A stretch of 64,000 nt of DNA from Cenococcum geophilum 1.58 (Eukaryota > Ascomycota > Dothideomycetes > Gloniales > Gloniaceae). Below the pieces are notes generated by a model. It saw only the letters and a list, made by a program, of their open reading frames with translations. It did not search any database and was not told where the DNA came from. Made by a program: the position numbers and the translations under genes. How positions within the stretch are numbered: position 1 is the stretch's first letter; each line of letters starts with the position of its first letter. This document shows, piece by piece, positions 1 to 57,083 of this stretch. The stretch lies in assembly GCA_001692895.1 (NCBI GenBank), contig KV748177.1, positions 3,882,130 to 3,946,129 on the forward strand, in the 5' to 3' direction.

Positions 1-3000
1 AGTAGTTCCTTATTATATATCTTATAGTTTAATTTAGTAGGGGTAAGTTTTTAGAAGAGGAAGGCTACTAGGCGCAGCTCGCCGTTTTTATTATATTGCA
101 ATAATACTCCTCCTAGTATATAGTTAGACGAGTTTATTTTAATAATATATTTAAGGTCTGGATTAAAGTAGGTAAGAATTAGAGTAGTTATAAAATAATA
201 TTTTAGGTTATTAAAAGCTTATTTATATTTAGTAGTCTATTTAAATCTTATATTCTTTTTTATTAAGTTTACTAATAGCTAAATAATTTTTAAGAAGTAA
301 TTAATAAATTAATAGTAGAAATTTACGAATCCTAGAAATCCTTAAATATTTTATATACTATTAGGACTTTCCTAGTTTATAATTATAGTAATTTTCTTAG
401 GGTCTATTTTAATTCCGTTGCGGGATATAATTAGGCCTAAGTATATAACTTTAGACGTATAGAACTTATATTTCTTAATATTGTATTATAAGCCCGCGTC
501 TTATAGGCGTTTAAGGACTATTTAAATGTGCTTTTAATACTTAGAAAGCAAAGATAAATAAATTAAGATATTATTAATATACGCGGTAATAAATATATTA
601 AGGAATTCGCGAAGCGTATTGTTAATATATTATTAAAACATACTAGGACCGTTCTTTATACTAAACGGTATTACTAGGTATTTAAAAAGTCCCTATTGTG
701 TACGGAAAGCAGTATACTTTTTATCTCCTTTGTAAATACGGATTTAATTAAAGGTAGTAACTATGTTAAGCTTTATAAAGTATTATACTTTTACTAAGTA
801 GTTAAGCGTTTCTTAAAGTAGAGGAATCGGATATTAGTTTTATATTATAATTATATTTAGGGCTTAATAATTAATATAGAATCTTAAGCCTTCTTTAGGT
901 TTCTTAATAAATAGTATAGGTAAGGCGAATAGTAATTAACTAGGGCAAATAAATCCTTTCTCTAGGTGCTCTTTAAGATATTATTATATTATAAGCAGCT
1001 CTTCTTGCGATATACCGTATAATGGGCTAAACTTTAGCGTTATACTAGGTTTAAGTTCTATCTTAAAATTATACTTATCTTAATATAGGGGTAGTTAGTT
1101 TACGAATTATTTCTTAAACGTATTAATTAGATTGTAATATTCTTTAGGTATAAGAGGTTGGGGGTTAATATATTACTTTAGTTCTAATGCCTTCTTAATA
1201 TCTTTTAGTGTTATAGTAAAGATCTTATAGTCTTATTTTCTTACTAACAAATAAAAGGGTACAGCTTATACTATATAAATTTTAAGGGGTTTTAGTATAT
1301 TATCTTTGCATTCTTTACCGCGATTAGTAGTTATAACTTTATTATATTAGTTTAAGGATTATAGCAAGGGTAATTTATATTATATTAAATTTAAATAGTC
1401 GTATGCATATTTATAGGGTAAGTAGTATTTTAAGTAATAACTTCGGTAGTAGGTTGTACGAAATTTTAGTATTTCTTTAATCTAGCTAATTAAAGGGTTA
1501 TATTATTTTAGCTATCCGTATCTAAGTATTACCTTATAATGCTTTAAGGGTATTATAAATAGGGAAATATATTTAAGGTGTTCGCCTATCTATATCTTTA
1601 TAAAAGCGTAGTATATAAGTTTACCGTATATTAAAGGCTTACTATTAAAGCCTTATAGGCCTTAGGGCTTATTAAGTTTCTTTAAATTTAAGCGTTAAGT
1701 TTTTACGTAGTTTATATTAATAAAGCCTATNCTAGTAGCTCNNCTNTCTATAAGGATTTNNACTTCCTTCNATTTTNTAAGTATTTAAATTTCGCTAAGT
1801 ATATTAAGGGAGTTATATTATATACTAGCGCTAAAACAGCCTAAATACTTATACTCTTCTACTTCTTATCTTAAGGCACGACTTAGCCCTAGGATAATTA
1901 ATTTTTTTTAAATTAACTAAAGGTAAGACGCTTTATAATAACTAAGTATAATTTATAAAATAAGTATAATTTGTGAAATAAGTATAACTTAAGGACTAAG
2001 AGGAGCTACGGCGGACCTTTTTAAAAGGGTAAGTTTAGCAATCCCTTTAAATATATCCCTTTTTTCTATATCTAAAACATTCTCTATTTACGGCTTATAT
2101 TCTTTATTTATTGGTTCCTAAGGGTGTATAGAATTAAGTAGTATTAAAGTCTATAGGGTTATATATAGGGCTTTTAGGTCTTAGAGACAGATCGCGCTTT
2201 AGGGTATATATTAGTTTTATAGAGTTTTAAATGTAAGATATAGTTAGCTTTAGAGAGCGGGTCTACTTATTATATTAGAAGTTTTTATTAATTCGTTAAC
2301 ATATTATAGCAAATTTAGGTAAATCCTTTAGTAGTTCTTTACCTACTAACTATGCTCTAATTTTATCTAAAATAGCTTAATAAAGAGTAGTAACTTTAGC
2401 GGCTTTATTCTAATCTAGTTTACTAATAAGGCCTAAAAATTCTAAAAAGAAGCTAGTAAAGTCTTAGTTCTATTATTATAGGTTTTTAAGTTTAGTAATA
2501 GCTATGTATTTATAGCTAGCGTTATTATATATTTATTTTAATAGAGAGATAAAGATTTTAAAATTAACGAAGGTGCTATTATAGAAGAATGGGTTTATAG
2601 TTTATATAGCGTCTTTACTTAAACGAGACATTCTATAGCTAATCTTACTAACTTTAGTAGGGTATTAGTTATAGTTTATTAAAAGTTTAATATGGAGCTT
2701 AGTTATAAAGGGACGTAGGTTATTTTAATTTCTATTAAATATTAGAGGGTTAGGGAGCTTTTTAGATTTTATAGTAGGTATTAGGTTTGTTATAGATACG
2801 GGTTAAACTGCTATTACTAGTTTAGGGTTTATATTTAATGGGTTAGGTTTATATACAGTTATTTTAATTTCGTTTATAGGTGTTACTATTAGGGTCTTTA
2901 ACGTAAGTACTTTAGCGTTATAGAGTTCTTTATATATTACTTTAATTAATTACTAATACTAAGCTTTTAGTATAGTTTATTACTGGGCTAAGGCATCTAT

Positions 3001-3413
3001 AAAGGACTATTGCATTATAGTTATTTATTCCCTAACTAGGGCTATAATAGTTAACGTGGCGGATTTAAGTTTGTTTACTATTTTAAGGGTATTAGTATTA
3101 ACGCAACGTAATATAAGGGCGCGGAGAGACTTTAGGAAGATTTAAAGAAATAATATAAATTCTATCTAAATCTAAGGGTATATAGCTCTTGGAAAGAATA
3201 TAACGTTATGTAAAGAAGAGAAAGGAATAACAAAAGAATTATATAATTAAATAGTTAGGGGCTTAGTGGTCGATGCGTGCGTATATACACACGCGGTCTT
3301 TAACGGACTTCGGTAATTTAATTAATTTGGCAGATTTTGGTCAAAGCGTCGGAATTTATCTATTGAGTGTTTTACTAAGACATTCCTACTATAACTGGAC
3401 TAGTCTCGTTACA
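1..3413 (-). mobile_element. Ty3/gypsy LTR retrotransposon, family A copy (5' part)
   Basis: Reads right to left and runs off the left edge of the window. It matches the plus-strand element that starts at 29299 through LTR, leader, gag, protease and reverse transcriptase. Parts on the minus strand: 5' LTR 3112-3413, gag about 3090-2050, protease about 1760-1650 (a DSGAT-type active-site stretch, in a zone with several N calls), reverse transcriptase about 1100-130, and the start of RNase H at the edge. It is inserted in element D, whose protease region begins straight after 3413. It is broken, with dozens of RIP-type stops, so an old fossil. Its leader keeps the sequence ACGTTGCGT two bases inside the LTR boundary, which helps to see the priming signal of this family. 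Confidence 0.85.
3112..3413 (-). repeat. 5' LTR of the minus-strand family A copy
   Basis: About 302 bp. It aligns with the LTRs at 29299-29603 and 48607-57149 and shares the GCGTGCGTATATACGCACGC-like palindromic stretch. On the minus strand it begins TGTAACG and its last bases match the end of the A LTR. The bases after it on the plus strand belong to element D. Confidence 0.8.
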
Positions 3414-15883: not shown

Positions 15884-16836
15884 GATAATAAAAGATATCT
15901 TAATTTATCTCCCCTTAATAGTTATTTAAATAGGTCCTATTTTAAGATTAATAATACCTCCTCTATAGGTTATTAGATCTCTTAAAATTATAACTAATAG
16001 ATAAAAGTACTCCTTCTATTAATAAGGTAGTTCTATTCTTTTTACTACTACTAAAAAGATATAGTTCCTTATTACTCTACTATCTATTAGCGCTTTAAAC
16101 TATTAATCTTACTAATTAACTTATAAATTTAGGTGTTATCCTTAAATTCCTTTAAAGGTCTAAGGCTTTACTACTAGCTCCCTTTAGTTTTATAGGCCTC
16201 TCCTTTTCCTAACTATTAGCTACTTAATCCCGTTATATTTAGCTTACTCTTTAACTAATACCTAGTTCGCTTTTTATCCTTAATATGCTATAAATATATA
16301 TTCTTTAGATATTCTTACTACTATTATTTATTTAAGTATTCTTTTATAAGAAATCTTTTTAGTTAAAGTATTAAGTCTTCTAACCCCTAAACTTCTACTA
16401 AATACTATCTATATATATACTTGGTATTTTTATACTATTACTTATTTAACATCTAATATATCTTTATAGGGTACTTCTAATTTTTTTTCCTTTGGATTTT
16501 TATGTATATTATATATATATAATCTATATATATAATCTATACCAATATATAATACATTAGGTACTTTAGGTTAACTCTTAGCTCGTCTTTACTTATAAGT
16601 TTAAACCTTTATTTAGCTAATCTAAACGCTAGTCTTTTGTTTATAGGTACTATAATTTACTTCTTACTCCTTTAATCCTTTAATCTTTCTTCTAGATTTT
16701 TTAACGTTATAATTAATACTCCTTTAATATAACTTATACGTTTCTCTATAATTACTTAGTCTTAAACAACTTTTTTATCCATCTATATATAAAAATCTTC
16801 CTATTTATCGTTGTGTTGCTATTTATACTACTTTTA
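15884..16836 (-). mobile_element. Fragment of an element E copy, minus strand
   Basis: The reverse complement matches E from about 8730 to 9620, the end of the extra gag-side segment and the start of protease. It is bounded on the left by the end of D's 3' LTR and on the right by a C-family LTR, so D and the C copy both appear to have inserted into it. The rest of this copy is not in the window. It is broken and heavily RIP-altered. Confidence 0.75.
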
Positions 16837-17762
16837 TATCACGGAACCCTACCGCAGGGGCCTCTATAGGAGAGCCCCGTGCTCTTATATATACCTCGCG
16901 TACAGCTTATATTAGCTACGCGTAGGTATATTACCTCCTTACGCCCTCGACCCTTACGATTAATTGCGTAACGTCTTGTAGACTCCTTAAATACATACGC
17001 TCTATAGCCACTGCCCCCGTTCTATAACATTATATTACGCCTTTTTACTACTAACGCTTAGCCTATAACCAATTCTACGTCTCTATAATACTGCAGGCGC
17101 TACTAAAAGCAGCATATCTATAAATTACCTTACTTTATACTTTTAAGGAACCCATAATAGTAAGATAATATTTCTTAATAGCTACTATATTAAACCTAAA
17201 AAATAATCTAATACCTATACTTAACCTACAACGCCAATTAATCCTAAGAGAATTTGATTTATTAGCCCTAGCCTTAACCCCTAAGGAGATAAACACCGAT
17301 AATATCTTATCTTTTATTAACTATATAACTACGGACAAGTAAACGGAAGGGCTACTACCTATTAAAATTGAAATATAAGACGCTAAGACGTTTGCAAAAA
17401 TAGTAGTATAAAACTATAATAAATACTACCGCCTTCTATAGAACTACTACTACCTAAAGCTTATACGAGCTAAAATGCGTACTATTTAAGATTGCGATAT
17501 TATTTAAGACCTATAAGCTTATAAGGCGCTCGCCAATAATATATATTAAAAAACTAAAGACGACCTCCGTGTGTCTAAACGCGACGTTTAACAGTTAAAG
17601 AAGAATAAGATTGCACTAATTGCTATAGTTACTAAAAAAGAAGGCATAATTAAATACCTATAATCTTAGCTTAATAAGTACATTCATAATAATACTAGAT
17701 ACCTCTTTACTATATATAACGCTACCTAAGTCTTTACGCCCCCGGCAACTTTACCTACTTAA
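16837..17762 (+). mobile_element. 5' end of a family C Ty3/gypsy copy
   Basis: LTR 16837-17029 (193 bp) followed by gag, aligned with 30563-31490 of the complete C element. It is cut at 17762 by the LTR of an E copy. The target site matches C's CTACTTAACGC, which fits insertion of E into C here. The remainder of this C copy is absent. Broken and RIP-altered, more so than the C element at 30563. Confidence 0.8.
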
Positions 17763-19097
17763 TATTACGGACGCTTTAAGTACGATGTTACGACTACTTA
17801 GAGAGGAGTTAGAAGAAGCTAGTTAGTTAATTTAAACATAGTCTAGAATGGAGCCGATAGAGCTATATAATGAGGAGTAGTAACTAAGGTCACATAACGT
17901 AATCTATATAATCTATATAATCTATAAGATCTATAATAAAGTAGATAGAGTATATATATATATTACGTATAAGAAGGATTTTATAGAAGTACGGTTGTGT
18001 ATTTAAAGACCCTTAGTCCCTACCTAGATAGTTCCTTCCTTATAGTAATTCTTAGAATATAATTAGAGTTAATCTATTAGGCAACTACTCCACCAGTTAT
18101 TATTACGTTGTTAACTTTAATTTGTATTACCTATATACCTGGCCCAATAATAAGCCCACCGTAGTTCTTGCTATAAAGTTCTATTATATAATTACTACCT
18201 AGTTACGGTATTAAATATAGAAAGTCAAATAATATGCCACTAAAAGCAGCCACTATAACGCTATTGACGGCGGCAACTACTTTAAGGTCAGGTGATACTA
18301 GTATGGCAGATACTAACTTATAGTAACCTATGACGGTTAGATAACTATAAGAGATAGTTAACTAATTAATAATAAATAATACAGCGTTAAAAGAAAGGGT
18401 TAATAGAATAAAAGTAGTAAAGATTAAGCTACCATTAATTAAGAGGTACTTAGGAGAAAGATTAAAGCTTAAAGGATTCCTTACGTAAATGCACTTTAAA
18501 GTCACGCAAGAAGGAGTGAAACTACTAACACCTATAGATCGAATAGCCTATATAGGACTATTCCTATTAGGAAGGGCACTTAAATAGTTTAAGCCTTACC
18601 TTATAGAAATTTAGGTAAACGGAATAATAACTACTAATTAGGAGGTATAATTTATATTCTTAAGCTAGAAAGGGTTTACGGAGCGACTTATATAAATGTT
18701 TAGAGATCTAGAGGCAGCGACTATAGCGGAAAGAAAACTCTAGAATATTACGTAATAAACCTTAGCAATTAAGTATATAATATAGTTCTAGACGCTAGTA
18801 ATATAAGTTAAGTGGAATAATAAGGCGCTTATAGCATAGTATAAGTAAGGACTTAAGGCTAAAGTCTAGGATATAATTATCCTAATAGAAGATGTGGACA
18901 CCCTATAGGAACTAATAGATTAGGCAATTAAGATTAATAATTGGATTTACTAAAGGGAATAGACTAAGAGAGGTTAGGATAGAGTTCTATAATTATATAA
19001 GACGTAAAGTACGTAATAACTAAAGCTAAATTAAAAACTATAGTATGGCGCAGAGCTAATAGACCTAAGCGGTACTAAAGAAGCCTATAAGAGATAG
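17763..19097 (+). mobile_element. 5' end of a second element E copy (LTR plus gag)
   Basis: LTR 17763-18188, then gag aligned with 6359-7270 of E. Similarity stops abruptly near 19097, where an unrelated minus-strand gag begins, so the 3' part was lost by deletion or recombination. Broken; the stop of similarity is sharp and has no visible LTR or target duplication. Confidence 0.8.
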
Positions 19098-19571
19098 AGG
19101 TTACCGCGTCCGCGGTTATTAGTTCGCGTTATTTAATAGGGTAGTATTAGGACTCGGTTTACTATCTTAGCGGGGTTATAGGCGTCCTTTTAGTGGCCGG
19201 GTAGGCTATAGATAAGGTATAGTCTATTATTAACGTAGCGCTTACGCTCCGTATCTAAGATTCTATTAAGGTCTATAGGTTCTTTAGTTACTACTAAGGT
19301 TAGGGTTAATATAGGGGCAGAGGCTTAGGTAGGTAGGCGGTGGTTAGCTTTTTTTAAGGTTAGCTTAGTGTATATAATTCGCAAAGTTCTTAGCGAATAT
19401 ATCTATCTACTTACTCTAACCTATATAGTCGCTATTATTAATTTTATAGGTAAGTCTAAGTACCAGCTCTTCTATCTTTAGAGAGATAAACTTTTAAAGT
19501 AGGTTTACCTTCTATTTATCTATCTTCTTAGCGCGGATTATTAGCTTATTAAGCTCTCCCTTTTAGGACTA

Positions 19572-24360: not shown

Positions 24361-24433
24361 TTTGGTAAGCAATTAAGCCCATCTTATACGAGAATCTCGT
24401 GCTATTAGCACTTACCAAATCACGTACTTATAG

Positions 24434-25165
24434 GGCCTCCTCCTATCTATAAATACTCTCTCCTCTATACCTTCCTCTCTTCTTTTCTTCTTCCCTATAA
24501 GAGCTAAAGGTGCTCTAATACTCCTCCCTAGTCCCCACTAAGGGATCTATTAGTCGACGTGGCAATATAAATAGCATTAGACGACAAGATGGGCGAGAGA
24601 CAACAGGAAGGACGAGGGAGCCTCCGGTATGTGTTAGTCGAGCAATATTACTGGCTATATTATAGCTGCCTAATCTCCTATACTTACAGGCCTCCTCCTA
24701 TCTATAAATACTCCCTCCTCTATACCTTCCTTTCTTTTTTTCTTCTTCCTTATAAGAGCTAGAGGTACTCTAATACTCCTCCCTAGTCCCCACTAAGGGA
24801 TCTATTAGTCGACGTAGCAATATAAATAGCATTAGACGACGAGATGGGCGAGAGACAACAGGAAGGACGAAGGAGCCTCCGGTATATATCAGTCGAGCAA
24901 CATTACTAGCTATATTATAGCTGCCTAATCTCCTATACTCGCAGGCCTCCTCCTATTTATAAATACTCCCTCCTCTATACCTTCCTTTCTTCTTTTCTTC
25001 TTCCTTATAAGAGCTAGAGGTGCTCTAATACTCCTCCTTAGTCCCTACTAAGGGATCTATTAGTTAATATAGTAATATAGATAGTATCTAATAAGGAGAC
25101 GGGTAAGAGAGGAGATAGGAAGGACGGAGGAACCTCTAGTAGGTATTAGTTAAGTAACATTAACG
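24434..25165. repeat. 255-bp tandem array, nearly three units
   Basis: Units start at 24434, 24689 and 24944, each at GGCCTCCTCCTAT, a constant 255-bp period. Every unit holds TATAAATACTCCCTCCTC followed by a CT-rich run, CCTCCCTAGTCCCCACTAAG or close variants, and AGAGACAACAGGAAGGACG. The first two units are nearly identical and little RIP-altered. The last part of the third is much more changed. The TATA box and CT tract recall an LTR promoter, and a TGT(T/C)AGTCGAGCAA word at about 24633 could be an LTR start, so a stack of LTRs is possible; a satellite is the alternative. Confidence 0.85.
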
Positions 25166-29293: not shown

Positions 29294-29298
29294 TAAGC

Positions 29299-29603
29299 TG
29301 TAACGGGACTAGCCTAGTTATAGTAGGAATGTCTCGGTGAAACACTTAATAGATAAATTCCGACGCTTTAACCGAATTCTGCTAGATTAATCGAATTTTA
29401 CTAAAGTCTGTTAAAGACCGCGTGCGTATATACGCACGCATTAACTACTAAGCCCCTAACTATTTAATTATATAATTCTCTTGTTATTCCTTTCTCTTCT
29501 TTATATAACGTCTTGTTCTTAGCGAGAACTATATACCCTTAAATTTAGATAGAATTTATATTATTACTTTAAATCTTCCCTAAAGTCTCTCCGCGCCTTT
29601 ATA
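29299..29603 (+). repeat. 5' LTR of element A
   Basis: It starts TGTAACGGGACTAGCC and ends GCGCCTTTATA, about 305 bp. TATATAA near 29470 precedes a CT-rich run and then the presumed transcript start at about 29512. A palindrome around GCGTGCGTATATACGCACGC lies near 29426. The leader begins TTACGTT. Confidence 0.9.
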
Positions 29604-30562
29604 TTACGTTATATTAATACTACTACCCTTAAAATAGTAAACGAACTTAAATCCGCCACAATAACTATTATAGCCCTAGTTAGGGAATAAATAACTATAA
29701 TATAACAGTCCTTTATAGATGCCTTAGCCTAGTAATAAACTATACTAGAAGCTTAGTATTAGTAATTAATTAAAGCAATACGCAAAGAACTCTATAACGC
29801 TAAAGTACTCGCGTTAGAGACCCTAATAGCAACACCTATAAATAAAATTAAAATAACTATATGCGAACCTAACCTATTAAATATAAACCCTAAACTAGTA
29901 ATAGCAGCTTAACCTATACCTATAATGAACTTAGTACCTACTATAAAATCTAAAAAGCTTTTTAACCCTCTAATATTTAATAGAAATTAAAATAACCTAC
30001 ATCCCTTTATAACTAAGCTCCGTCTTAAACTTTTAATAAACTATAACTAATACCCTATTAAAGCTAGTAAGATTAGCTATGGAATATCTTATTTAAGTAA
30101 AGACGCTATATAAACTATAGACCTATTCTTCCGTAATGGCACCTTTATTAATTTTAGAATCTTTATCTCTCTACTAGAACGAATATATAATAATAGTAGC
30201 CGCAAATATATAGCTATTACTAAACTTAAAAACCTATAATAACGGAACCGAGACTTTACTAGCTTCTTTTTAGAATTTTTAGGCCTTATTAGTAAACTAG
30301 ATTAGAATAAAGCCGCTAAAGTTACTACCCTCTGTTAAGCTATTTTGGATAAAATTAAAGCATAGTTAGTAGGTAGAGAACTACTAAAGGACTTACCCGA
30401 ATTTGCTATAATATATTAACAAATTAATAAGGACCTTTAATATAATAAATAAACTTATTCCCTAAAGCCAACTATATCTTATGTTTAAAACTCTATAAAA
30501 CCAATATATACCCTAAAGCGCGATCCGTCTCTAAGACCTAAAAGCCCTATATATAACCCTAT

Positions 30563-30756
30563 TGTCACAGAACCCCACCGCAGAGGCCTCTATAGGAGAG
30601 CCCCGTGCTCTCGCATACACCTCGCGTACAGCTTATGTCAGCTACGCGTAGGTATATCACCTCCTTACGCCCTCGACCCTTACGATCGATCGCGTAACGT
30701 CTTGTAGACTCTTCGAATACATACGCTTTGTAGCCACTGCCCTACGTCCCGTAACA
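30563..30756 (+). repeat. 5' LTR of element C
   Basis: TGTCACAGAACCCC to CCCGTAACA, 194 bp, followed by the leader TTACGTTGCGCC. A GCGTAACGTCTTGTAG run at about 30692 lies some 39 bases after a TATATC box, and can pair with the leader. Confidence 0.9.
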
Positions 30757-33700
30757 TTACGTTGCGCCTTTTTTACCACCGACGCTTAGCCTACGACCAA
30801 TTCTACGTCTCTGCAATACTGTAGGCGCTGCTAGAAGCAGCGTATCTACGAATTACCTCACTTTATACTTTTAAGGAACCCATAATAGTAAGACAATATC
30901 CCTTACTAGCTACTATATTAAACCTAAAGAACAATCTAATACCTATACCTAACCTACAACGCCAATCAATCCCAGGAGAATTCGATTTATTAGCCCTAGC
31001 CTTAACCCCTAAGGAGACGGATACCGATAATGTCTTATCTTTTATTAACTATATAACCACGGACAAGCAAATGGAAGGGCTACTACCTATTAAAATCGAA
31101 ATACGAAACGCCGAGACGTTTGCAAAAATGGTAGCATAAGACCCTAATAAATACTACTGCCTTTTATAGAACTATTACCTAAAGCTTATATAAGCCGAGA
31201 TGCGTGTTGCCTAAGATCGCGATATTATCCAAGACCTACAAGCTCGTAAGGCGCTCGCCGATAACACACGTTAAGAAACCGAAGACGACCTCTGTGTGTC
31301 TAAACGCGACGTCCAACAGTTAAAGAAGGCTAAGATTGCACTAATTGCTACGGTTACTAAAAGAGAAGGCATAATTAAATACCTATAATCTTAGCTTAAT
31401 GAGCATATTTGTAATAACGCTAGATACCTCTTTACTATATATAACGCCACCTAAGTCTTTACGCCCCTGGCAACTTTACCTACTTAACGCTTAACGGAGG
31501 GCTAGTGCTAAGCAGCTTTACCTAATAGGAACCCCTACTAAAGCAGCGATAATAAAAGCTATAATAATCGGACCTAAACTGCTACCGTAGGGTCTAATAT
31601 ATACTACCCTAATCCCCTAGTCTTTTAGGGAGACCGTAAGGAATATAGCCACTAGAAGATGCAAATCCGCGAGAAACCAACTTAAAGCGCCTGCCCTTTT
31701 CTTATAGAAGACACTAAGATCGGCTATATTATCGGGCGAATAAAGGGTATACCGTTTAACAGACTCTTCGCCTAATAGAAGACTAGTAGCCCCTAGAAGT
31801 GGCAGTCCTATTAAAAAGTCCTTAATAATCTTAACCTAATATACCGCGACTATAACCTACTAGCCACTAACCGAGCTAAACTACGTGCCCTAAAGATAAG
31901 CACTATTGAATTATTTAACGAATTTTATGTTAAATTCTAGGAATATACTGGAGCCCTTGCCTAAGACGATACTAAAGACTAGAAGAACCTCCTTAAAAAA
32001 GTTACTTATCGCCTTAGTTACGTAGCCGCCAGCTACAACTACAACGATGTTTATAATATGGTAGTAGCTCTATAGAAGATCGAACGACAACTAAATTAGA
32101 TTACTACTGCTAACCCTTGCCCAAAGACCTCTCTATAGAAGCCCCCTAGGCCTACCAAACCTATATATACTAAGCCACCGACGCCTACTACCTTAAGTAC
32201 TACCGGAACTAATATCGATTTCTCTATACTAACCTTCCTATAGAAACTCCTAGATGGAGAGCGCGAGCTACTCCAGAAACTAGGACGCTGCTATAGATGC
32301 CGTTAAGAAGGCTGTTATCGCGATAACCTAAACTGCCTAATAGCTAGGTTTAGTAGCCGCTGCCTAATACCTAACTTAATACCCTAAATACTAAATACGT
32401 CGCTATGCGCTACTACCGTATAAGATAAAGACGTAGTAATAGCGGTAGAGTTAGATACGGAAACGGAAAACGCTAAGTTCTAGCCCTAAGTCGTGGGTTA
32501 GGACGCCCTGATAACGGAGGGATCTATATATTAGCTTACTTAATAGATGACTCTATAAAGATAAATAGATAGAAATAGATAGTTTTACCTATAATAGGAA
32601 CTACTGCTAAAAAACAATACAAAAGCCGTTCTATAATTAATTGCGGAGCTACTAATAAATTTATAGATACCTAATTCGTGCGTATTTATAACCTACCTAC
32701 CTTACCCCTTACTAAAGCCCGCGCCCTATAACTCGCTAACGGTAATTATACCGCATAGAAAATTACCTATATAGTATAACTCTACCTAGATATAAATAGG
32801 CACTAGGAAGAACTCTAGGCCTATATAATACCACTTGCTAACTACCCTATTATCCTTAAAATAAACTAGCTTAAATAATACAACCCCGCCATTAACTGGA
32901 ANAAAAAAGAAGTAACCTTTAACTCTAAATACTGTAGAGAGACTTGCCTAGGGTATAGCCTAGCCGCCTCTATTTACTCCCCAGGATATTAACCTAAGGA
33001 ACCCCTTATTACCCTACCTACAACTAACTGCCACTACGTAAGTGCCTTGGCCTTCTACCGCATAGCACGTAAGAAAGGCTAGATTATTGCTATAGCTTCC
33101 TAATTATAACTATATAAGCTTAATAAAGAATAGGACTATGTCCTCTANAGTAATAGNATAGATATAGTNAACCTTNTAGAANANGANGCCCCTNNNGAAC
33201 TCTACGGACTTTTACCTTTAGACTTTAAGAAGTTTATAAAGCTTAAAAAAGGACTTACTAACGAAGAACTCTATAAGCTCCTCCCTAAGAGGTACTATGA
33301 CTTTACTAATATATGCTTATAAAAGAGCGTAGATATACTCCCCCCACATCGACCTAATAACTATATCATTAACATTAAATAAGGAAAAATGCTACCTTAT
33401 AAGAGACCCTACCTAATATTAAAAGACAAGCTTCTAGTTATAAAAAAGTATATTAACAAGCACCTCGACAAAGGATTTATTCGTCCTAGCATATTACTAG
33501 CAGCCGCCCCTATCCTTCTCGTTAAGAAGCTAGGAGGAGGTATCTGATTCTATATTAACTATAGAGGACTTAACGCTATTATAATTAAAAACTAATACCC
33601 AGTACCGCTTATACGTGAGACCCTTAAGCGGCTTAGTTAAGCCAAAATCTATACTAAGCTTGATATTATCGCCGCCTTTAACTATTTCCGAATACAGGAA

Positions 33701-36733: not shown

Positions 36734-36927
36734 TATTACAGAACCCCACCGCAGGGGCCTCTATAGGAGAGCCCCGTACTTTTACGTACACCTCGCGTAT
36801 AGCTTATATCAGCTACGCGTAGGTATATCACCTCCTTACGCCCTCGACCCTTACGATCGATCGCGCAATGTCTTGTAGACTCCTCAAATACATACGCTTT
36901 GTAGCCACTGCCCCACGTCCCGTAACA
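36734..36927 (+). repeat. 3' LTR of element C
   Basis: Same 194-bp length as the 5' LTR, directly after a purine tract and followed by the duplicated CCTAT. Confidence 0.9.
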
Positions 36928-38246
36928 CCTATAGACCTTAACGCCACTTAATCCTATATACTCTTAGGAACTAATAAATAAAGAATATAAGCCGTAAATA
37001 GAGAATGTTCTAAATATAGAAAAAGGGGATATATTTAAAGGGATTGCTAAACTTACCCTTTTAAAAAGGTCTGCCGTAGCTCCTCTTAGTCCTTAAGTCG
37101 CACTTATTCTACAAATCGTACTCGTTTTATAAATTATACTTAGTTACTATAAAGCGTTTTACCTTTAGTTAATTTAGAAAACGAATTATTCTAGGGCTAA
37201 GTTATGCCTTAGAATAAGAAGTGAAAGAGTATAAGTATTTAGGCTCTTTTAGCGCTAATATATAATATAACTCCCTTAATATACTTAGTAAAATTTAAAT
37301 ACTTAGAAAATAGAAGAAAGTATAAATCCTTATAGATAGCGGAGCTACTAGTATAGGCTTTATTAATATAAACTACGCGAAAACTTAACGCTTAAATTTA
37401 AAGAAACTTAATAAGCTATAGGGCCTATAAGGCTTTAATAGTAAGCCTTTAATATATGGTAAACTAACGCACTACGCTCTTATAAAGATGTAGATAGGCA
37501 AATACTTTAAATATATTTCCCTATTTATAATACCCTTAAAGTATTATAAAGTAATACTTAAATATAGATAGCTAAAATAATATAACCCTTTAATTAGCTA
37601 GGTTAAAGAAATACTAAAATTCCGTATAATCTACTACTAAAGTTATTACTTAAAATACCACTTACCCTATAAATATACACATGACTATTTAAATTTAATA
37701 TAATATAAATTACCCTTACTATAAACCTTAAACTAATATAATAAAGTTATAACTGCTAATTATAGTAAAGAATGCGAAGATAATATAATAAAACCCTTTA
37801 AATTTCGTATAGTATAAGCCGCACCCTTTTATTTATTAGTAAGAAAACAAGACTATAAGATCTTTACTATAATACTAGAAGATATTAAAAAGGCATTAAA
37901 ACTGAAGTAATATATTAACCCCCGACCTCTTATACCTAAAAAATATCATAATCTAATTAATATATTTAAGAAATAATTCGTAAACTAACTACCCCCGCAT
38001 TAAAATAAGTACGATTTTAAGATAGAACTTAAACCTAGTATAACGCTAAAGTTTGGCCTGTTATACGGTATATTATAAGAAAAGCTGCTTATAATACGAT
38101 AATACCTTAAAGAGCACCTAGAGAAAGGATTTATTCGCCTTAGTTAATTACTATTTGCCTTACCTATACTATTTATTAAAAAACCTAGAGGAGGCTTAAG
38201 ATTCTATGTTAATTATTAAGCCCTAAATATAATTATAATTTAAAAC

Positions 38247-38476
38247 TGTCTGTACGAGCAGAGATTATAAATATCGTTACTAGATGCATAGCGTGGAGCG
38301 TATGCGGCAGGGACCGCATAGCGTAGCGTAGGTCACCTAACTACCTCGGCCCGATAGATAGCCCGACCTTTACTACCCCTTTCTCTCTCCTTAAGTAGAC
38401 AAAAGACAGAACACGAATGAATTAAGAACCAGTTACCTTATATTGCAATTGCAGTACTCCCTAGGTGATACCGACA
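38247..38476. repeat. Solo LTR (230 bp) in the reverse transcriptase of A
   Basis: TGTCTGTACGAGCAG to GTGATACCGACA, with AAAAC duplicated on both sides (38242-38246 and 38477-38481). Removing it restores the reading of A's reverse transcriptase. No internal region is present, so it is a solo LTR left by recombination between two LTRs. The parent family is not otherwise in the window. CpA and TpG words are still common in it, so it is younger than A's main RIP. Confidence 0.75.
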
Positions 38477-39468
38477 AAAACTAATATCTAATTTCTCTGC
38501 TTTAAGAAACGCTTAACTACTTAGTAAAAGTATAATACTTTACGAAGCTTAACGTAGTCGCTACCTTTAATTAAATCCGTGTTTATAAAGGAGATAAGAA
38601 GTATACGACTTTCTATGTATAATAGGGACTTTTTAAATAACTAGTAATGCTATTTAGTATAAAGAATTGTCTTGGTACGTTTTAGCAATATATTAATAAT
38701 ACGCTTTGTGAATTCCTTAATCTATTTATTACCGCATATATTAATAATATTTTAATCTATTTGTCTTTGCTTTCTAAGCATTGGAAGCACGTCTAAATAA
38801 TCCTTAAACGCCTGCAAGACGCGGGCTTATAATATAATATTAAGAAATGCAAGTTCTATATATCTAAAGTTATATACTTAGGCCTAATTATATCCTGTAA
38901 TGGAATTAAAATAGACCCTAAAAAAATCGCTGCAATTATAAACTAGGAAAGTCGTAGTATATAAGATATCTAAGGATTTCTAGGATTTGTAAATTTCTAC
39001 TATTGATTTATTAATCACTTCTTAAAAATTATTTAGCTATTAGTAAACTTAATAAGGAAGAGTATAAGATTTAAATAGACTACTGAATGTAAATAAGCTT
39101 TTAATGATCTAAAATATCGTTTTACGACTACTTTAATTCTTACTTACTTTAACCTAGACCTTAAATACATCGTTAAAATTAACTCGTTTAATTATGCACT
39201 AAAAGGAGTATTATTATAATATAATAAGAACGGCGAGCTGCGCCTAGTAGCCTTTCTCTTCCGGAAACTTATCTCTGCTAAATTAAACTATAAAATATAT
39301 AATAAGGAACTCCTTATAATTGTTAAATGCTTTAAATAATGGCGTCTAGAACTTAAAGAATTATTGTTTTTAATACGCGTATTAACGGAGTATAAAAACC
39401 TACAGTACTTTATAACTATAAAACAATTAATACAGCGCCAAATTCGTTAGGCTAAATACCTCTTATAA

Positions 39469-48606: not shown

Positions 48607-48845
48607 TATAATAGGACTAGCCTAGTTATAGTAAGAATGTCTTAGTAAAATACTTAATAGATAAATTCCGACGCTTTAACCAAATTCTGCTATATTAATT
48701 AAATTTTACTAAAGTCTATTAAAGACCGCGTGCGTATATACGCACGCATTAACTACTAAGCCTCTAACTATTTAATTATATAATTCTCTTATTATTCCTT
48801 TCTCTTCTTTACGCAACGTCTTGTTCTTAGCGAGAACTATATACC
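48607..48845 (+). repeat. 3' LTR of element A, first part
   Basis: It aligns with the first 240 bases of the 5' LTR and is preceded by a purine tract. It contains TATATAA about 35 bases before ACGCAACGT (48811-48819). It is interrupted at ATACC by the G plus B insertion and resumes at 57084. Confidence 0.9.
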
Positions 48846-49288
48846 TATAAGAGTATATATATTAGGTCCCGCCGCGCTTACAACAAGTTCGCAAGCACTC
48901 TTAGTCTTTTTGGCCGTATGGCGACGTGGAGGCGGGCCACGTTACAATTGTGCTTGCGAACTTACTGGGGCTAGGTATCGTGGGTTCGATTCCTATTGGT
49001 TACTTCGCTCTAGTACAGTCTAACGCGCATTTGTGTAATGAGGCGTTAGTGGAGATTCTAATCGCTTATATTACTGGGGACTAACTAATATGGTGATACT
49101 CTTGGCGTTTAATCCCTGTGGCGCGAACGGGCGTATAGAGGAATCCCTGCGAGCGCTCGAGGACGAGTGCGTAGAGGAGAGGGCAATTGTAAGAGTATAT
49201 ATATTAGGTCCCGCCGCGCTTACGACAAGTTCGCAAGCACTCTTAGTCTTTTTAGCCGTATGGTGACGTGGAGGCGGGCCACGTTATA
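48846..49288 (+). mobile_element. Miniature LTR element G (TRIM) with self-priming signal
   Basis: A 443-bp element made of two 101-bp direct repeats (48846-48946 and 49188-49288) around 241 bp of non-coding sequence. LTR ends are TGTAAGAG and CACGTTACA. In the LTR, TATATATAT is followed some 31 bases later by AAGTTCGCAAGCAC; three bases after the LTR the leader reads GTGCTTGCGAACTT, its exact 14-base complement. A purine tract, AGAGGAGAGGGCAAT, sits directly before the second LTR. These are the parts a retroelement needs in cis and nothing more, the definition of a TRIM. The two LTRs differ at about five sites, all transitions. The interior also has GGTTCGATTCC (48983-48993), a perfect Pol III B-box/T-arm word. 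It must have used proteins of another element. Confidence 0.75.
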
Positions 49289-49291
49289 AAT

Positions 49292-49669
49292 TGTAAGAGG
49301 CCAGCCTGACCAGAACGTATGATTATTTAATCGACAGTGTTACTAGTAAGTAGAAGGTAAGTCAAAGGTAAATAGAAGGTAAGTTAAAGGTAGAATAAGT
49401 TTTATATATTAAAGGACAAATGCTTCTAACTACTTCTATTTAGAGACTAATTGCTAGTTCTTCTTTAGAGGAGAACTAGCTCCCTATATAATCTTTCTAA
49501 GACGCTAGTAAAACCCTTTGCCCCTTATTTATTTAACTATATCTTCTAGGACGTAGATAGAATATAGGTAAGACCTTCTTTTGGAACATAGATGAGACCT
49601 CCTTCTAGAACATAGATAAGACCTCCTTTTATCTCATCTAATATATACCTTCTAGGGAATTCCGTTATA
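49292..49669 (-). repeat. 3' LTR of element B
   Basis: TGTAAGAGGCCAGCC to TTCCGTTATA on the plus strand, 378 bp, separated from G by AAT. It contains two copies of AGAAGGTAAGT(C/T)AAAGGTA. Confidence 0.9.
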
Positions 49670-50019
49670 ATTGCCTCCCCTTTAAGGGTCTTAGTCCTCT
49701 AAAACTTCGCCTCTACTAAGCTTTTATAGAGTTCTAGCTAAAACTACTAGGGAAATTCTTAGTAAAAAGGTACTCTATAATGCGGCTTATAGCTAGTTCT
49801 TTACTAGCGTAGAACCTTACTTTATCCTTAGTTCCTTTACTCTTTTCCTACTATAGTTCCCTATAATGCCTTTATAATGGAACTAAAATAATAATAATAA
49901 AAATTGGATGGGATTTACCTTTCTTATTATAAGAGTTTGTTATAAGTTAATCTAGAGGTTGTCCTATNTAACGNGTCNANNAGCTACNATCCCTATTTAC
50001 CTAAAATNGATTCTNATNA

Positions 50020-51640
50020 TAACGTCTTTATTTTAATTTTCTTTTAGTTTATAAGCTGTCGCCTCTTACGCGTCTTTTTATTAACAATACTATTTGTCTT
50101 ATCTTTTAGTAGACTATTTCCTCTATATCTCCGCTTTTAGCTTCCGTGTCTTTAGCTATTCTTTTATAGCTACTTTGTTCTCTTCTTATAATATATCTAT
50201 AAGTAATAGGATCCCCACCTTATCTTTTTATGACAATACTAACTTCTTAGAGTATTCTCTTATAATGGCTCGTGGTCCCTAGACTGGCGGCAGTATTATT
50301 AATCTCCTAGTGACGCCCTAGACAGCGTCTGTTGCTTCTACAGCAGTTTCCCTAAAATGCTATCGTTACTATATTTATGCTCTTATACAGGATCCTTCCT
50401 ACGTCTATAAGATGCCTTACTCCGGCGAAAACAAATCTAAATACTCCTATTATCGCAGTAGGAGAAAGACCTATATCCTAGTATTTCCCATTCTGTCCTA
50501 TTCTAAATTTCGCTAATTATACTAGATCCTTACTATTTATATATATAAGACTTATAGGCTCTAACGCGCTATTTAAGATTTCCGCTAATATCCTAATAGT
50601 AATAGGTGGGGATAGAAGGTATCTTCCCTTGCTTATAGACTCTTTAATTTTATAAGGGTTTCTACTGCTATAAAGATGTAACATTCTCGGATATATAGTA
50701 TCTAGGAGCGCATATACAAACAGCTCGTCTTTATTAATAATAATATTTATACTTTTACGCGGGCTACTCTAGCTAGGTAAGTTTCTCTAGTAACTTACTT
50801 AGGAACTATACTAACTCCTTTAGCTAATATCTCTCTAATCCCTGCTTAGACGCTAATTTAGAACCTAGGGATACTAAGGATAGCGATAAAGGTTAAGATA
50901 AACATTCTCCTCGCCAGTCTCCCGCCCGTGCTAGTCCTTTTAGTACCCGTCATTCTAAGAAGAATATTAGTAGAAGTGCTAATGCTTTTAGGGATAGAGG
51001 AGCTAATAATACCATTGATAATAACGTTAAGATAGAAGAGGAGGCTCCTATTGCTACTGCTGGTGTTTAAGTTATTACCTAGCTCTTTCTTTCTTATAGA
51101 ATAGCTTTATATAGTGCCTCTTAGGTGCCTCTAGGATGCCCTATTATTAGGAATTAACTTTATACTTTAGGGATGCCTTTATTCTAAGCTTTAGTAACAA
51201 TCTATATAAACACAGTATACTACTATAATCCCCATATATAATAAACGGGTGGTATTCCTATAGGTGCCTTATAATTCCTTAAAATTTCTAATTCTTTATA
51301 GGCTGTCCTTTTGCTCCTCTTCGTACTATTAACTCTACTACGTATCTCCGGTGCTAGGCTAGATACTCTCCTTTTATCCCTAAGGGATCTTACTAAATCC
51401 CCAAGGCCACTTCTTATAGTGCTACTACTCCTTCTTATATAGCGTCTTCTTTAAACAGTATCCCTAGTAGTTCTCCTATAGATCCCTATAGGCTTCCTCT
51501 TATAGGATTCTAGGATCCCTATTATAATAGCGAAACGTTTCCGTTCTTAATACCTATACTTAATCCTATGGTTTTAATTTACGGGGTCTTCCCTATTACT
51601 TCACCTATAGTATATCCGGAACCATTTCTAAGTCTTTACC
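50020..51640 (+). other. Antisense coding-like region before the 3' LTR of B
   Basis: Between B's chromodomain and its 3' LTR lie about 1.6 kb with no pol domain. The plus strand, antisense to B, has a coding-like frame from about 50270 to 50850 with runs such as LIQDPSYVYKMPYSGENK, interrupted by TAA/TAG codons as expected from RIP. I do not recognise the product. Either an accessory gene in opposite orientation or chance; element E has a similar situation. Confidence 0.35.
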
Positions 51641-54600
51641 TTTAGTTCTTAGGAAGGTTTTAATTACGGTGTCGCATCCCGGCCGAAGGTACTCCTTAGG
51701 TTCCCAACTATTATATACTTAGGAGTATCCTTCCTAACGAACTAAAAATTCGCGCTTCTTCTAGCGCCATCTTTAGTCTAGAATATCTTCTATATTCCAT
51801 TCTAGTTCCCTATTAATTTCGCTAGGTAGGGGCGGTTCCGCACTATCTTTTCTCCGGTATAGCTTTAGTAAGAAAATATAAAATATGGGATATATTAGAT
51901 AAGATTTCGGTAATTTTAATTTATAGGCTTAGTTTCCTTTAGTTTTCTTAACTATCTTAAAGGGTCTAAGCTACTAGTAATCCAGCTTCTTCTTAATGCG
52001 TTTTATTTGGATATTTTTTATAAATAGTAAGACTTCGTCTTCTATCTTAAATTCTTTCGGCATATGTTTTTTATTATAGTACCTTTTTTGCATAGTCTAG
52101 GCGTCTAGCAAGTGCTTTTCAAGTTCCTCTCTACGAATTCTCATTTACTTAATTCTTTTAGACGCCGCTAGTGCCTCTCTTTTAGGAACGATGTCCTTAA
52201 TATTCTAGGGGTTATTTACTTTTACCCCAAATAATGCTTTATAAGGGGTCATTTTTATACTACTATGGATGCTTATATTATATACGTGCTGCGCTAGAGC
52301 TAACCACAATGTCTAATTATCCTATTAATAATTGATATAGTAGCGGAGGTAGTGTTCTAATAATGTATTTAGATGCTCTATTTACCCGTCTATTTGTAGA
52401 TAAAAGGTAGTGCTTATCCTTTGCTATATTTTCAATAAGAGATAGAATAAAGACTAAAATATACTATTAAATACGGTGCCTCTGTTAGATATAATTCCCC
52501 TTAGCGTGCCAAATAAGAGCCACTATTCCAAAAACAGGTCTACCAGTTTTACTACTATAATTGTTATTATAACAGCAAAGTATTCTAAAAACTTTGTATA
52601 CCTGTTAACGATTACTAGAATAGCGTTAGCAACCTCTCTAGTTCTTATCTTGGTAGGGGGTAAGTCTATAATAAAATCTATTATTAATTCTGATATAGGT
52701 TTCTGCGGAATAGGAAGCACTAATAACTCGCTATATAGGCGATGCCTAGATATCTATATCCTTTGGCACGTATTATACCTCAATATATAGTCCTTAACCT
52801 CTTTAGATATTCCGTCCTAAAAGTATTTCCTTTAAATGGCCTTAAGGGTTCTATTAGCACCGTAGTAACCCCTAAAAGGGTTATTATGGAAGACCTTTAG
52901 AATTTCATCTTAAATTGCTTGGTCCTTTAGGATATATATAGTACCCTTAAAGTATAACAGACCCTTTTAGTCTTACTACTATAGCTTTTTAGTGATTTTA
53001 GCTAAGTTGGTCTCCACTATATCTTTCTACCTCTCCCTAGAGGCGAAGGCGTCCCTTTATTAAGCTTAAAGAAGAAGATCTAGAAAGGTTTTATACAGAT
53101 CGCTTACTTCCATTTCGCCTACTGCTATTGCAGACTTAAGGTATAGTATAAGACGTTTCGAACTATTAGTGCCAGCAGATTCTCCTACCGTTATGTAGTA
53201 TGCTACACTATAGATAGGCATCTTACCTATCCCCCTTAGATCCAAGAACTCGCAGCTAATACGCCGTCAAGTCGAAGGTGCCGCGACACCTCTAGTATAT
53301 CCTATAGAATTCTCGCTAATTCTAGGGTACGCCAACTTTATAATATCTGCTTAGTCTATAACCTAGTCTATAACTATATCCTACAGCTCTATAATTATGT
53401 CGCTTTGTAGCTATATTGCTAGGACCTCTACCCTGCTACGAAATTCTATAGTTCTAGAGAAAGAGTCTTCTTTCTTCCTAAGCAAATTTTGCAATATAGG
53501 GATTATTTCCCCTATACTGTCCTAGATCCTCCCTGTCTTATAATCCGAACGTCTTAATAACTTATTAGCAGGATTTATCTTTCCTAGGCGGTATATAATC
53601 TTAAAATCATACTATAATAGTGCCTCTGCCCACTTAGCTTATCGACTGCTTAATACCTTTATAGTCATAAAGTATTCTAGGTTGTTATGGTCTATAAGGA
53701 CTTTAATAGGATAATTACTTCCTATATAATAATATCGCCAGTACTTTATTACTGCGATTATTATAAGCAGCTTCTGGTTATGCGTTATATAACGCTATTT
53801 TATAAGGGTTATTTTCCTTAACCAAAACGCTATAGGATGCTATTTTCCGTCTTTTAATTGAGATATAATTGCCCCTAGGGTAAAGCCGGATGCATCTATT
53901 TTAAAGTATATACGTAGCTCCTAATAGAAGTGTATTAGGATAGGCGCCGACGTAAACAAATCCTTTAACCGGTTTATAGCCTACTTAGCAGCTTTCCTAA
54001 ATATAAAGGGTCCTAACTTCCTGCTATTCTTAGATCCTTTTAGTAGATTGGTAATTAGGAGTATTACTTATAAGTAGTAAATAATAAACGTTTAGTAGAA
54101 GTTCGCCGTGCCTAAAAAAACCTATACTTCTCTAAATATTATAGGGTAGGGCTATTTCCTAATAGCGTCCACCTAACTTTTCTCTATTAATATTTTATTA
54201 ACGCTAATAATAAAGCCTAAAAAATTAATGCTAGTAGTATAGAACGTGCACTTTTTTAGGTTTATATAGAGCTTATATTCCCGCAGTCTTTTTAGTACTA
54301 TTTATACATAGTATATATATGCTTTGTAGTTATTAGAGTAGACTACAATATTATTAAGGTAGACCACACATATTATATCCAATAGGCCCAATAATGCCTT
54401 ATTAATATAGGCCTAAAATATCACTAGTACGTTAGTGAGCCTAAATGGCATTACTAGGTACTCAAAGTGGCCGTACTATATTTAAAACGCTGTTTTCCAC
54501 TTATTGCCGGCTTTAATCCGGATTTAATGGTATATATCTTTTAGATCTAATTTTATAAATATCTTTACGCCTAACAGCCTATTAATAAGCTCCCCTATTA

Positions 54601-56700
54601 AGGGTAATAGGTAGTAATTCTTTATAGTAATCTTATTTAGCGCCTAATAGTCAATATAGAGGCAAAGGGTCCCGTCCTTTTTAGGTATAAATATAATCGG
54701 CGCCCTTGCTAGGCTTATAGAGGGCCAAATCCATCCTCTCTAAAAATTGTCTACTATATATTAACGTAGTACCGCCAGCTTATTTTCTAATAGGTTATAT
54801 AGCAGTCTAAAATAAGGTTGTTTGTCCCCTATATCTATCTTATACTTAACTAATATAGGGTCAGGTAAGGTTTGTGTAGCCTCTTTACTAGAAATATCCT
54901 CTAAGTCCGTATATTCCTATAGAATCTCTAGTTCCTTAACTACGTATAGCTGGATATCCAAAAATAAATATCCTATATCCCTGTTCTTAGTGTTAAGAGT
55001 AGCATATATAGCATATACCTACCCTTTTTCTTATACATAGTTTAAGAAAGTCTCTTAATCTTTAACTATAATACGCGGTTAAGACTTCCGATGTTAATAT
55101 AAGGCTAAAGGCCAATTAATATCCGGATTGACTTAGTGAAGCTATAGGTATCCTAAAATAAGGTTATACCCCTTAATTTCTACAGCATAGAAGCGCATCT
55201 CCTATATGTCCTATAGACTATCGCGGTCCTAGCTAGCCACGGAAAAAGCCTGTTCCCTATAGTATAGAATCCAGTGGCCTTTAATACTTTAAATAGTGCG
55301 CACCTGCAAGCCGTTAAGGTCCAAATCTAATTCTTTTACTAGTAATTAAGAAATAAACCCTATACTCGCGCCGCTGTCTATAAGGTAGTCTCGCGTTACC
55401 TATTTATTATTAACTTAAATAGAGATAGGAATAACTATATAGCAGTTTACTCCCTCTTTCTCTTGCTAGCCTAGTGTAAGGGAGTAAAGATTTACTAGGC
55501 TGTCTCTTTTTCTAATTAGGCCGACTCTTACTTCTTTTACTAGCAGAAGCGGCTTATATAGCCCTTCTTACCGCAGTTATAATAGGTATATATCTCCCGG
55601 TTCCCCTCCTATAGATTAGGTCTCTACCTATTGTTATTTTAAGGTTAACTAGCATTGCTCTAGGGCTGTAAGGCCTACTTATATTGTCCTTTTATAGAGC
55701 GGTTAGGTCGGAATCTACCCCTATTATTAAAGCTAGGTCTAGTCCTACGCTCTTTATTATTAGCGTCTTATTCCTTTCGCTTGCCTAAATAGTCTCTTTT
55801 AGCACTCTTAATCTAAGTAGCTTTAGAGATAAGCTTTTCTTAAAAGGTAGGAATTTTGCCCTTCTCTTATATAGCCTATTAAATCTTAGGTTGTAGCTTA
55901 GTAAGTAGCTAGTAAAGTTATATAGCGTTATCCTACAGATCTAAGTAGGGTATATTATCTTCTAGTTCTTCTAAGTAGTTTATAAACTGGACTATAGTCT
56001 AACTATCCCGCTATTTAGCATTATGGTATCGCTAGTTATAGTCCATCCCTTAATTAGTAGGGTTTTAGACCTAATTAACTAACCAGGTCCTAAGTTCGCT
56101 GAATTTAAGGGGTGTAGTAAGTTTCTTCTTGTAGCATGTCTATAAACTCTTAACGGTGCCACGCAGGAAGGTAGAAGCAATTAGTGTCTAATTATACTCG
56201 TTAGAGTAACGTTTTGGATCCAGCCGAAACTTAGTTTTATATTATCGGATAAAACAATTATAGTTCTAAAGACTATCACCATAGTACTCATTAGGTTCCT
56301 TTATGCGGAATTTAGGTTTTTCTGACGTTATAGTATAGTATGGCGTTACCCCTTTAAGTCCGCTTCGTGTCTGGGGTGTCTATACTTCCCCCAATTGTCC
56401 TTATAATTGTTCTTGGTAGTCTTAATATACTTATCTTAATTATATCTCCAACTCCTTTGTTTTTTATAGGGTCTTGTGTAGCGACCACTCTAATAACTCT
56501 CCAGCGGTAATCGTTCCTAAGGGTCTTATAAGGTTAGACGGACTAGCCGTGGCTTCTTTATAGGAAGAGGGAATGCGCTCCTCTAGGGAGACTCTTTAAG
56601 CCTCTTATGGTAAGGGCGTTGCTTTATAGGGTACAGGAGTATAGTTCGTTATTATTAATTAATAGCCATACGTTCCTAACGGATTGTAAGCGATTAGAAT

Positions 56701-57078
56701 TATAAGAGGCTAGCCTAACCGGAATGTATAATTATCTAATTGATAGTATCACCGGTAAGTAGAAGGTAAGTTAAAGGTAAATAGAAGGTAAGTTAAAGGT
56801 AGAATAAGTTTTATGTATTAAAGGACAAATGCTTCTAACTACTTCTATTTAGAGACTAATCGCTAGTTCTTCTCTAGAGGAGAACTAGCTCCCTATATAA
56901 TCTTTCTAAGACGCTAGTAAAACCCTTTGCCCCTTATCTGTCTAACCGTGTCTTCTAGGACGTATATAGAATATAGGTGAGACCTCCTTCTGGAATATAG
57001 ATGAGACCTCCTTCTGGAATATAGATGAGACCTCCTTCTGTCTTATCTGATATGTACCTTCTGGGGAATTCCGTTACA
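56701..57078 (-). repeat. 5' LTR of element B with internal short repeats
   Basis: 378 bp, ending CCGTTACA before ATACC. Near 56975-57045 it has GAGACCTCCTTCTG in three tandem copies with a 22-bp period, and near 56758 a doubled AGAAGGTAAGTTAAAGGTA. The leader inside reads, on the minus strand, ATTCTAATCGCTTACAATCC. Confidence 0.9.
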
Positions 57079-57083
57079 ATACC

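Follow-up and report, generated by a model that had tools for sequence, protein, structure and literature searches.

How might a retrotransposon of 443 bp with no coding frame prime its own reverse transcription? Element G, in the 64,000-nucleotide stretch of Cenococcum geophilum DNA analyzed here (the window), raises this question. The original prediction described G as two 101-bp LTRs, a leader, a short interior and a purine tract, and this layout proved correct to the base. It also placed the leader site three bases (ATT) past the LTR and made it the exact complement of a block within the LTR; we found both to be so, with 14 of 14 positions complementary. The features of G are listed below.

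48846-49288, plus strand: element G, TRIM-sized, 443 bp
48846-48946, plus strand: 5' LTR of G, 101 bp
48854-48862, plus strand: TATA-like run TATATATAT in the 5' LTR, putative in function
48885-48898, plus strand: self-primer block AAGTTCGCAAGCAC, with the RNA 5' end presumed at 48885 or 48886
48923-48943, plus strand: U5 hairpin of 7 pairs, between the primer block and the primer-binding site
48947-48949, plus strand: ATT spacer, with which the U5 side of unprocessed cDNA ends in the joints of loci L025, L035, L050 and L034
48950-48963, plus strand: primer-binding site GTGCTTGCGAACTT, exact complement of AAGTTCGCAAGCAC
49171-49187, plus strand: polypurine tract GTAGAGGAGAGGGC (49171-49184) and AAT spacer, directly before the 3' LTR
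49188-49288, plus strand: 3' LTR of G, 101 bp

The two LTRs are 96% identical over 100 nt, and the purine tract ends in GGGC, followed by AAT and the second LTR. We found no coding frame in the 443-bp window copy, the longest stop-free frame being 74 codons. The distance of about 31 bases predicted between the TATA-like run and the primer block holds when counted from the start of TATATATAT but not as a gap, which is 22 bases. The longest complement between LTR and leader is the 14-mer itself, a length that none of 5000 dinucleotide shuffles of the LTR reached (maximum, 11). When the 82 nt from the primer block to just beyond its complement were folded as RNA, the energy was −35.2 kcal/mol (z, −4.69), none of 200 shuffles was as low, and the 14-bp stem and the U5 hairpin both formed. 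Tf1 uses an 11-nt primer and needs a U5 stem-loop. The three-duplex “pretzel” around the primer-binding site of Tf1 has additional duplexes, whereas by eye we saw no conserved flanking duplexes, and no clear pair of this kind, beside the central duplex and hairpin of G. Rfam returned no match in the G region at an E value of 5 and none in the window at the gathering score.

Tf1 is an established case of self-priming, its primer-binding site being the complement of the 5' end of its own mRNA (PMC4600332), and the same has been proposed for Tj1 and others (PMC4600332, PMC10085805); Tf1/Tf2, Tj1, Cft-1, Maggy and Skippy are among the elements listed as self-priming in these two papers and in PMC6934838. 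Tf1-type elements resemble G in that the site past the LTR complements an LTR stretch at the presumed RNA 5' end. The corresponding arrangement in G is a primer-binding site that complements an LTR block past the TATA-like run at 14 of 14 positions. By analogy, the RNA of G would start near the AAGTTCGCAAGCAC block, and its 5' end would fold back onto the 14-nt site three bases past the LTR. RNase H would release a primer of 13 to 14 nt, as in Tf1, and minus-strand DNA would begin at the ATT spacer, a start point read from the joints described below. We consider it highly probable that G is a TRIM-sized element whose RNA primes itself at the LTR-complementary site, with reverse transcriptase and integrase supplied in trans, most likely by the neighboring element P, and that G and P inserted together, U5 to U5. 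G would thus be independent of host tRNA for priming.

The complementarity extends to other copies, as the original prediction had proposed to check. In the assembly behind our genome-wide counts (177 Mb in 162 contigs), the two 14-nt blocks, separated by a gap of 30 to 60, occur exactly at 77 places, while the reversed control gave 0. We read 69 further copies of G, 49 of them from 50 listed exact-pair places (the 50th being the window) and 20 found by similarity; because 49 came from exact-pair places, intact pairs are overrepresented in this sample, and the other 27 of the 77 places lie outside it. LTR matches were present at all 70 loci, window included, with two full-length LTRs in 67 by the script rule. 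A second LTR lies within the stretch at 48 of the 50 exact-pair places read, the exceptions being L032, which is a fold-back, and L051, which has no second LTR in the 699 bases past the first. Other single copies measure 418 to 472 bp, and tandems measure 778 and 785 bp.

Target duplications were scored at 68 loci (L032 and L051 being left out). They were exact over 5 bp in 56 copies and carried one mismatch in 2 more. The ten loci with no scored duplication comprise six joints, the tandem L054, and L011, L049 and L066. On reading, L011 has TTAAC on both sides, the script having misanchored this copy.

Compensatory changes between the two 14-mers, which the original prediction had offered as support, were sought, and none was found; the blocks hardly vary. 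The LTR ends and ATT could be read at 77 places, five of which are joints lacking a primer-binding site, leaving 72 block-site pairs. Of these, 57 are exact as listed and 2 more (L032 and L055) are exact after a shift; of the 22 pairs from copies that were found by similarity and not through the exact pattern, 9 are exact. Eleven of the 13 changed pairs differ by C-to-T or G-to-A only, as from repeat-induced mutation, with L072 and L073 changed otherwise. A C-to-T pattern that looks targeted was also seen in L067, L074, L076 and L077, whose left LTR alone has CGC changed to TAT within the primer block. The resulting AAGTTTATAAGCAC was considered as a subfamily mark and rejected, being absent from all their other LTRs; it is probably later damage.

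An alignment of 47 rows, 46 of them distinct, gave 98.1% pairing for the 14-bp helix. Nine of its 14 pairs are invariant, 4 vary on one side, 1 departs by unpaired cells only, and none changes on both sides, so the covariation test does not favor the primer helix. In the U5 hairpin, 11 sequences carry changes on both sides of one of the 7 pairs. Across the entire fold, this single both-side-changed pair is below the shuffle mean of 2.1, and 498 of 500 shuffles reach 1; the both-side-changed cells number 11 versus 5.0 in shuffles, and the covariation score is 0.080 versus 0.062. The covariation evidence for the U5 hairpin is at best mildly positive.

More can be learned from copies in which cDNA ends have been joined. 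In L025, the joint at the right LTR of G reads GTTACA-ATT-AAT-TGTAAGAGG, where ATT and AAT lie between this LTR and the end of another element, and L035 has the same with one base changed. The joint of L039 is ATT alone and that of G and P in the window is AAT alone, and in L050 ATTAAT connects the tail of G to the tail of another G-type LTR, the whole unit being flanked by ACGAG. A genome search for the exact joint palindrome TTACAATTAATTGTAA located it twice, in the joints of L025 and L050. The ATTAAT-type joints resemble unprocessed cDNA ends that were linked to each other, which puts the first minus-strand DNA base directly before the 14-nt site. In L034, a 564-bp unit flanked by GCTAG, a second, inverted LTR retains ATT, GTGCTTGCGAACT and a C at its U5 end; a genome search gave no second exact example of this joint elsewhere. 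In size, such an end fits plus-strand strong-stop DNA whose synthesis extended over a primer of 13 nt. The 13-nt primer copy is identical to the LTR block of G, and the last C, seen at this single locus, could have been copied from the cap.

Two exact fold-back joints at the 14-mer exist genome-wide. L032 is a 158-bp unit of the form U3-R-U5-ATT-GTGCTTGCGAACTT-rc(U3) with CCCTT on both sides, as if the primer-site end of strong-stop DNA had looped round to pair with its own LTR block, from where it was extended. In L079, an inverted dimer of 739 bp with TATAC on either flank, one end shows the fold-back at the exact 14-mer, and a second fold-back, inside the dimer, involves the first 10 nt of the 14-mer. 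By eye, the reverse complement of an LTR's R there runs through GTGCTTGCGA, next to which TATT stands in place of ACTT, like the site of L073, and continues into the interior. Since tRNA-primed elements lack pairing between primer site and LTR, fold-backs are a signature of this complementarity. They reveal DNA ends and not the identity of the priming RNA; they are also few, and any long inverted repeat pairing during DNA synthesis could yield them. Taken together, the perfect pair well placed past the TATA-like run, the cDNA joints, the primer copy of L034 and the fold-backs at the 14-mer support the self-priming that the original prediction had read into G.

The joints also bear on priming by a host RNA, in which a tRNA, whole or as a cut half as in copia-like elements, would prime at the leader and the LTR match would be a structure with another use, e.g., packaging. 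tRNAs serve most LTR elements, and for fungal Helenus TRIMs it is mostly sequence from the tRNA anticodon loop that is used (PMC10886601). In G, cDNA starts at ATT|GTGC, which leaves no room for a CCA end (the first TGG is at 48966), and genome-wide the 14-mer with a preceding A or G occurs at two places only, both of them copies of element G (one leader and one solo LTR). The primer copy of L034 is the LTR block. The original prediction named a better-matching tRNA as evidence against it. We found none among 11 tRNA-like loci over the cut-off (nine with an ARAGORN gene), whose matches to the 14-mer are at most 7 nt, the same as for shuffles; this set is small and the comparison partial, because 63 of 10103 candidates were scored. 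Longer matches to the 44-nt leader, of 12 nt at most, reflect its T-arm-like stretch read in the sense direction and not a primer-type complement. We regard host-RNA priming as very improbable.

If G primes itself, the primer could still be the cleaved 5' end of a different G RNA, acting in trans. By eye, the LTR parts of L079 belong to two subtypes and are united at the 14-mer. In addition, left and right LTR subtypes differ in 8 of the 67 two-LTR copies (L010, L011, L026, L034, L054, L055, L068 and L072, with a weak call for L055), as if strands had been exchanged between molecules. Mixed LTRs can also arise from later strand transfers, and the short distance and the U5 hairpin favor intramolecular folding; we consider priming in trans a rather unlikely variant. 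Folding of the RNA onto its own site is the reading we retain.

Next to G lies element P, with the features listed here.

48841-48845: left copy of the target duplication ATACC; the right copy, past P, is at 57079-57083
49289-49291: AAT, linking the U5 ends of G and P
49292-57078, minus strand: element P, probably Ty3/gypsy, co-inserted with G and broken by many stops
49292-49669, minus strand: 3' LTR of P, 378 bp
53642-53794, minus strand: RNase H piece of P (RT_RNaseH, E = 4.3e-07)
54176-54301, minus strand: reverse transcriptase piece of P (RVT_1, E = 8.4e-06), a short piece below the curated cut-off
56689-56697, minus strand: P site CTAATCGCT, past the LTR and ATT (56698-56700)
56701-57078, minus strand: 5' LTR of P, 378 bp
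56856-56864, minus strand: primer-like block AGCGATTAG of P, 35 nt past the start of TATATA

ATACC flanks G on the left and P on the right. Two target paralogues in the window have a single ATACC (at 29533-29537 in one of these empty sites) and contiguous flanks, the right flank being alike over 72 bases. From ATACC on both outer sides and the empty-site paralogues, we conclude that G and P entered together as one 8.2-kb insertion; since P is attached to the right end of G, a target duplication for G alone is lacking. The cDNAs of G and P would have been joined U5 end to U5 end and then integrated as one unit. The paralogues are contained in two of the long window repeats, which are direct and inverted with about 81 to 93% identity (1-3413, 16836-19099, 29298-31487 and 36734-39314); the window also has a local tandem at 24425-25162.

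Joints of G and P were found at 4 of the 70 G loci, all of them U5 to U5. Their outer target duplications are ATACC in the window, TATTA in L025, TTTAC in L035 and GTCTT in L039, and P is a solo LTR in L025 and L035. P and G have in common the cDNA ends AATTGTAA...TTACAATT and the polypurine tract end GGC-AAT, and beyond termini and spacers we saw no likeness. The machinery of Tf1-type elements is Ty3/gypsy, as it probably is in P. Pfam gave no match for the first five P pieces; nine further pieces gave four reverse transcriptase or RNase H matches, one weak SH3_Tf2-1 match (E = 0.015, below its cut-off), two chance-like names and two without a match. RVT_1 was matched at 2.5e-15 in P copy L152. 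Reverse transcriptase precedes RNase H on the minus strand, and the best PDB matches of a piece from L152 include Ty3 reverse transcriptase. The integrase-like pieces of P had no integrase match in Pfam, and integrase was recognized by eye only.

The coding pieces and polypurine tract put P on the minus strand. A reading of P on the plus strand with primer site GCCTCCCC was ruled out by the same two features. P might itself carry a self-primer: the AGCGATTAG/CTAATCGCT pair was readable in 15 of 22 stretches, being exact in 4, a matched variant in 1, and matched at 7 or 8 of 9 positions in 10. Since 60 of 5000 shuffles reach 9 or more, this 9-nt pair is suggestive only, and no exact fold-back joint of P was found. 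Other features of P include 24-bp tandem repeats in the LTR (49560-49631; copies L134, L142, L143 and L147), with LTR lengths from 354 to 424, and about 2 kb between the integrase-like region and the 3' LTR (49670-51776). The minus-strand frames at 51226-51450, 50861-51106 and 50520-50768 have look-alikes in L152 and no Pfam match.

P is likely the helper of G. The helper could also be another, unseen element with the same primer-binding site as G; this coding element would share the LTR ends and GTGCTTGCG site of G. Nonautonomous elements often have the primer-binding site of their helper, and this site and most of the LTR differ between G and P. A coding relative might also lie at L051, which shows no second LTR in the bases read, or among the 27 exact-pair places beyond the 50 that were read. 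All 4 joints of G with another element type across the 70 loci involve P, and the shared cDNA ends and GGC-AAT also tie G to P; at 48 of the 50 exact-pair places read, a second LTR closes the element, with L032 a fold-back and L051 open. We find an unseen helper rather improbable and keep P as the likely one.

To look for further self-primed families, 420 TTAYAATT sites on both strands of the loci read and the window were scanned. There were 47 distinct matches, versus 5 in the reversed control. Setting G aside leaves 8 matches, 4 in P and another 4 that are AT-rich or cut.

The leader of G further contains a tRNA-like stretch, and we examined how the RNA of G might be made. The relevant features are as follows.

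48907-48911: TTTTT in the LTR of G, by sequence reading
48911-48921, plus strand: A-box-like TGGCCGTATGG, a weak match present in 8 of 70 copies, with one mismatch to the A-box consensus TRGYNNARNNG
48979-48993, plus strand: T-arm-like stretch in sense orientation with an exact B box GGTTCGATTCC (48983-48993)

The L017 leader shares 17 identical nt with L164, which Rfam calls a tRNA (48.5 bits) and ARAGORN does not. Among the 70 copies, 32 have the exact B box GGTTCGANNCC, versus 22 of 14000 letter shuffles; a looser form allowing C-to-T and G-to-A is present in 63 of 70, the shuffle comparison applying to the exact form alone. Among six copies with strongly diverged interiors, the B box is exact in 3 and departs at a fixed position in 3. 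G could accordingly be pictured as a self-priming mini-retrotransposon with RNA made by RNA polymerase III. The TATA-like run would then lie at about −31, the A-box-like stretch at about +26 and the exact B box in the T-arm at about +98, and TTTTT would be a leaky terminator defining R. If true, G would need neither a host tRNA primer nor polymerase II, and SINE-like and LTR parasitism would be united in one element. We think this polymerase III reading unlikely.

G shares with TRIMs (of plants, an ant, cestodes and bivalves) a length of less than 1 kb, LTRs of about 100 bp, the positions of primer-binding site and polypurine tract, and the absence of coding sequence. Measured against the TRIM definition, it is under 1000 bp, has repeats within about 100 to 250 bp, is noncoding, and has integrase-type target duplications and a polypurine tract. 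TRIMs have been described with a tRNA-complementary primer-binding site (PMC6934838), and that paper raises self-priming only when discussing an absent site. The primer-binding site of TRIMs matches tRNA, whereas that of G complements its own LTR and matches tRNA by at most 7 nt in the partial set of 11 tRNA-like loci, making G TRIM-like and not a textbook TRIM. Conversely, Tf1-type elements encode proteins, whereas G has no coding frame, a 14-nt block and a 3-nt spacer. We classify G as a TRIM-like element whose priming mechanism resembles that of Tf1.

Two further groups invite comparison. Fungal Helenus shares a 5-bp target duplication with G. Helenus, Ajax and Cassandra (“TRIMp3”) carry polymerase III promoter pieces, as the leader of G has its T-arm-like stretch with a B box; in TRIMp3, the tRNA or 5S piece is inside the LTR and the primer-binding site matches tRNA, whereas the stretch in G is in the leader. 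According to PMC10886601, the tRNA-like LTR piece and the primer-binding site of TRIMp3 have no complementarity. The biv-TRIM of bivalves, like G, lacks a canonical tRNA primer-binding site, and its authors bring up self-priming elements; no self-primer was demonstrated there, while G has a perfect 14-nt pair. The original prediction knew of no described self-priming TRIM, and our literature search, with most subscription papers outside its reach, likewise found none.

If our reading of G is true, the self-priming of coding Tf1/sushi elements is also enough for a parasite of 443 bp, with primer, hairpin and primer site fitting in 79 nt carried by the element. The fossils of G (strong-stop-like DNA bearing a primer copy, primer-site fold-backs, joined unprocessed cDNA ends and a co-integrated helper) would make steps of reverse transcription readable in the genome. 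Fossil joints could likewise serve as a sequence-only test of primer choice and helper identity for TRIM families with a “missing” tRNA site.

Cassandra arrays consist of tandem copies with a common LTR, as do the tandems of G. These were seen at L068, L077 and L054, and the outer target duplications are exact in L068 and L077.
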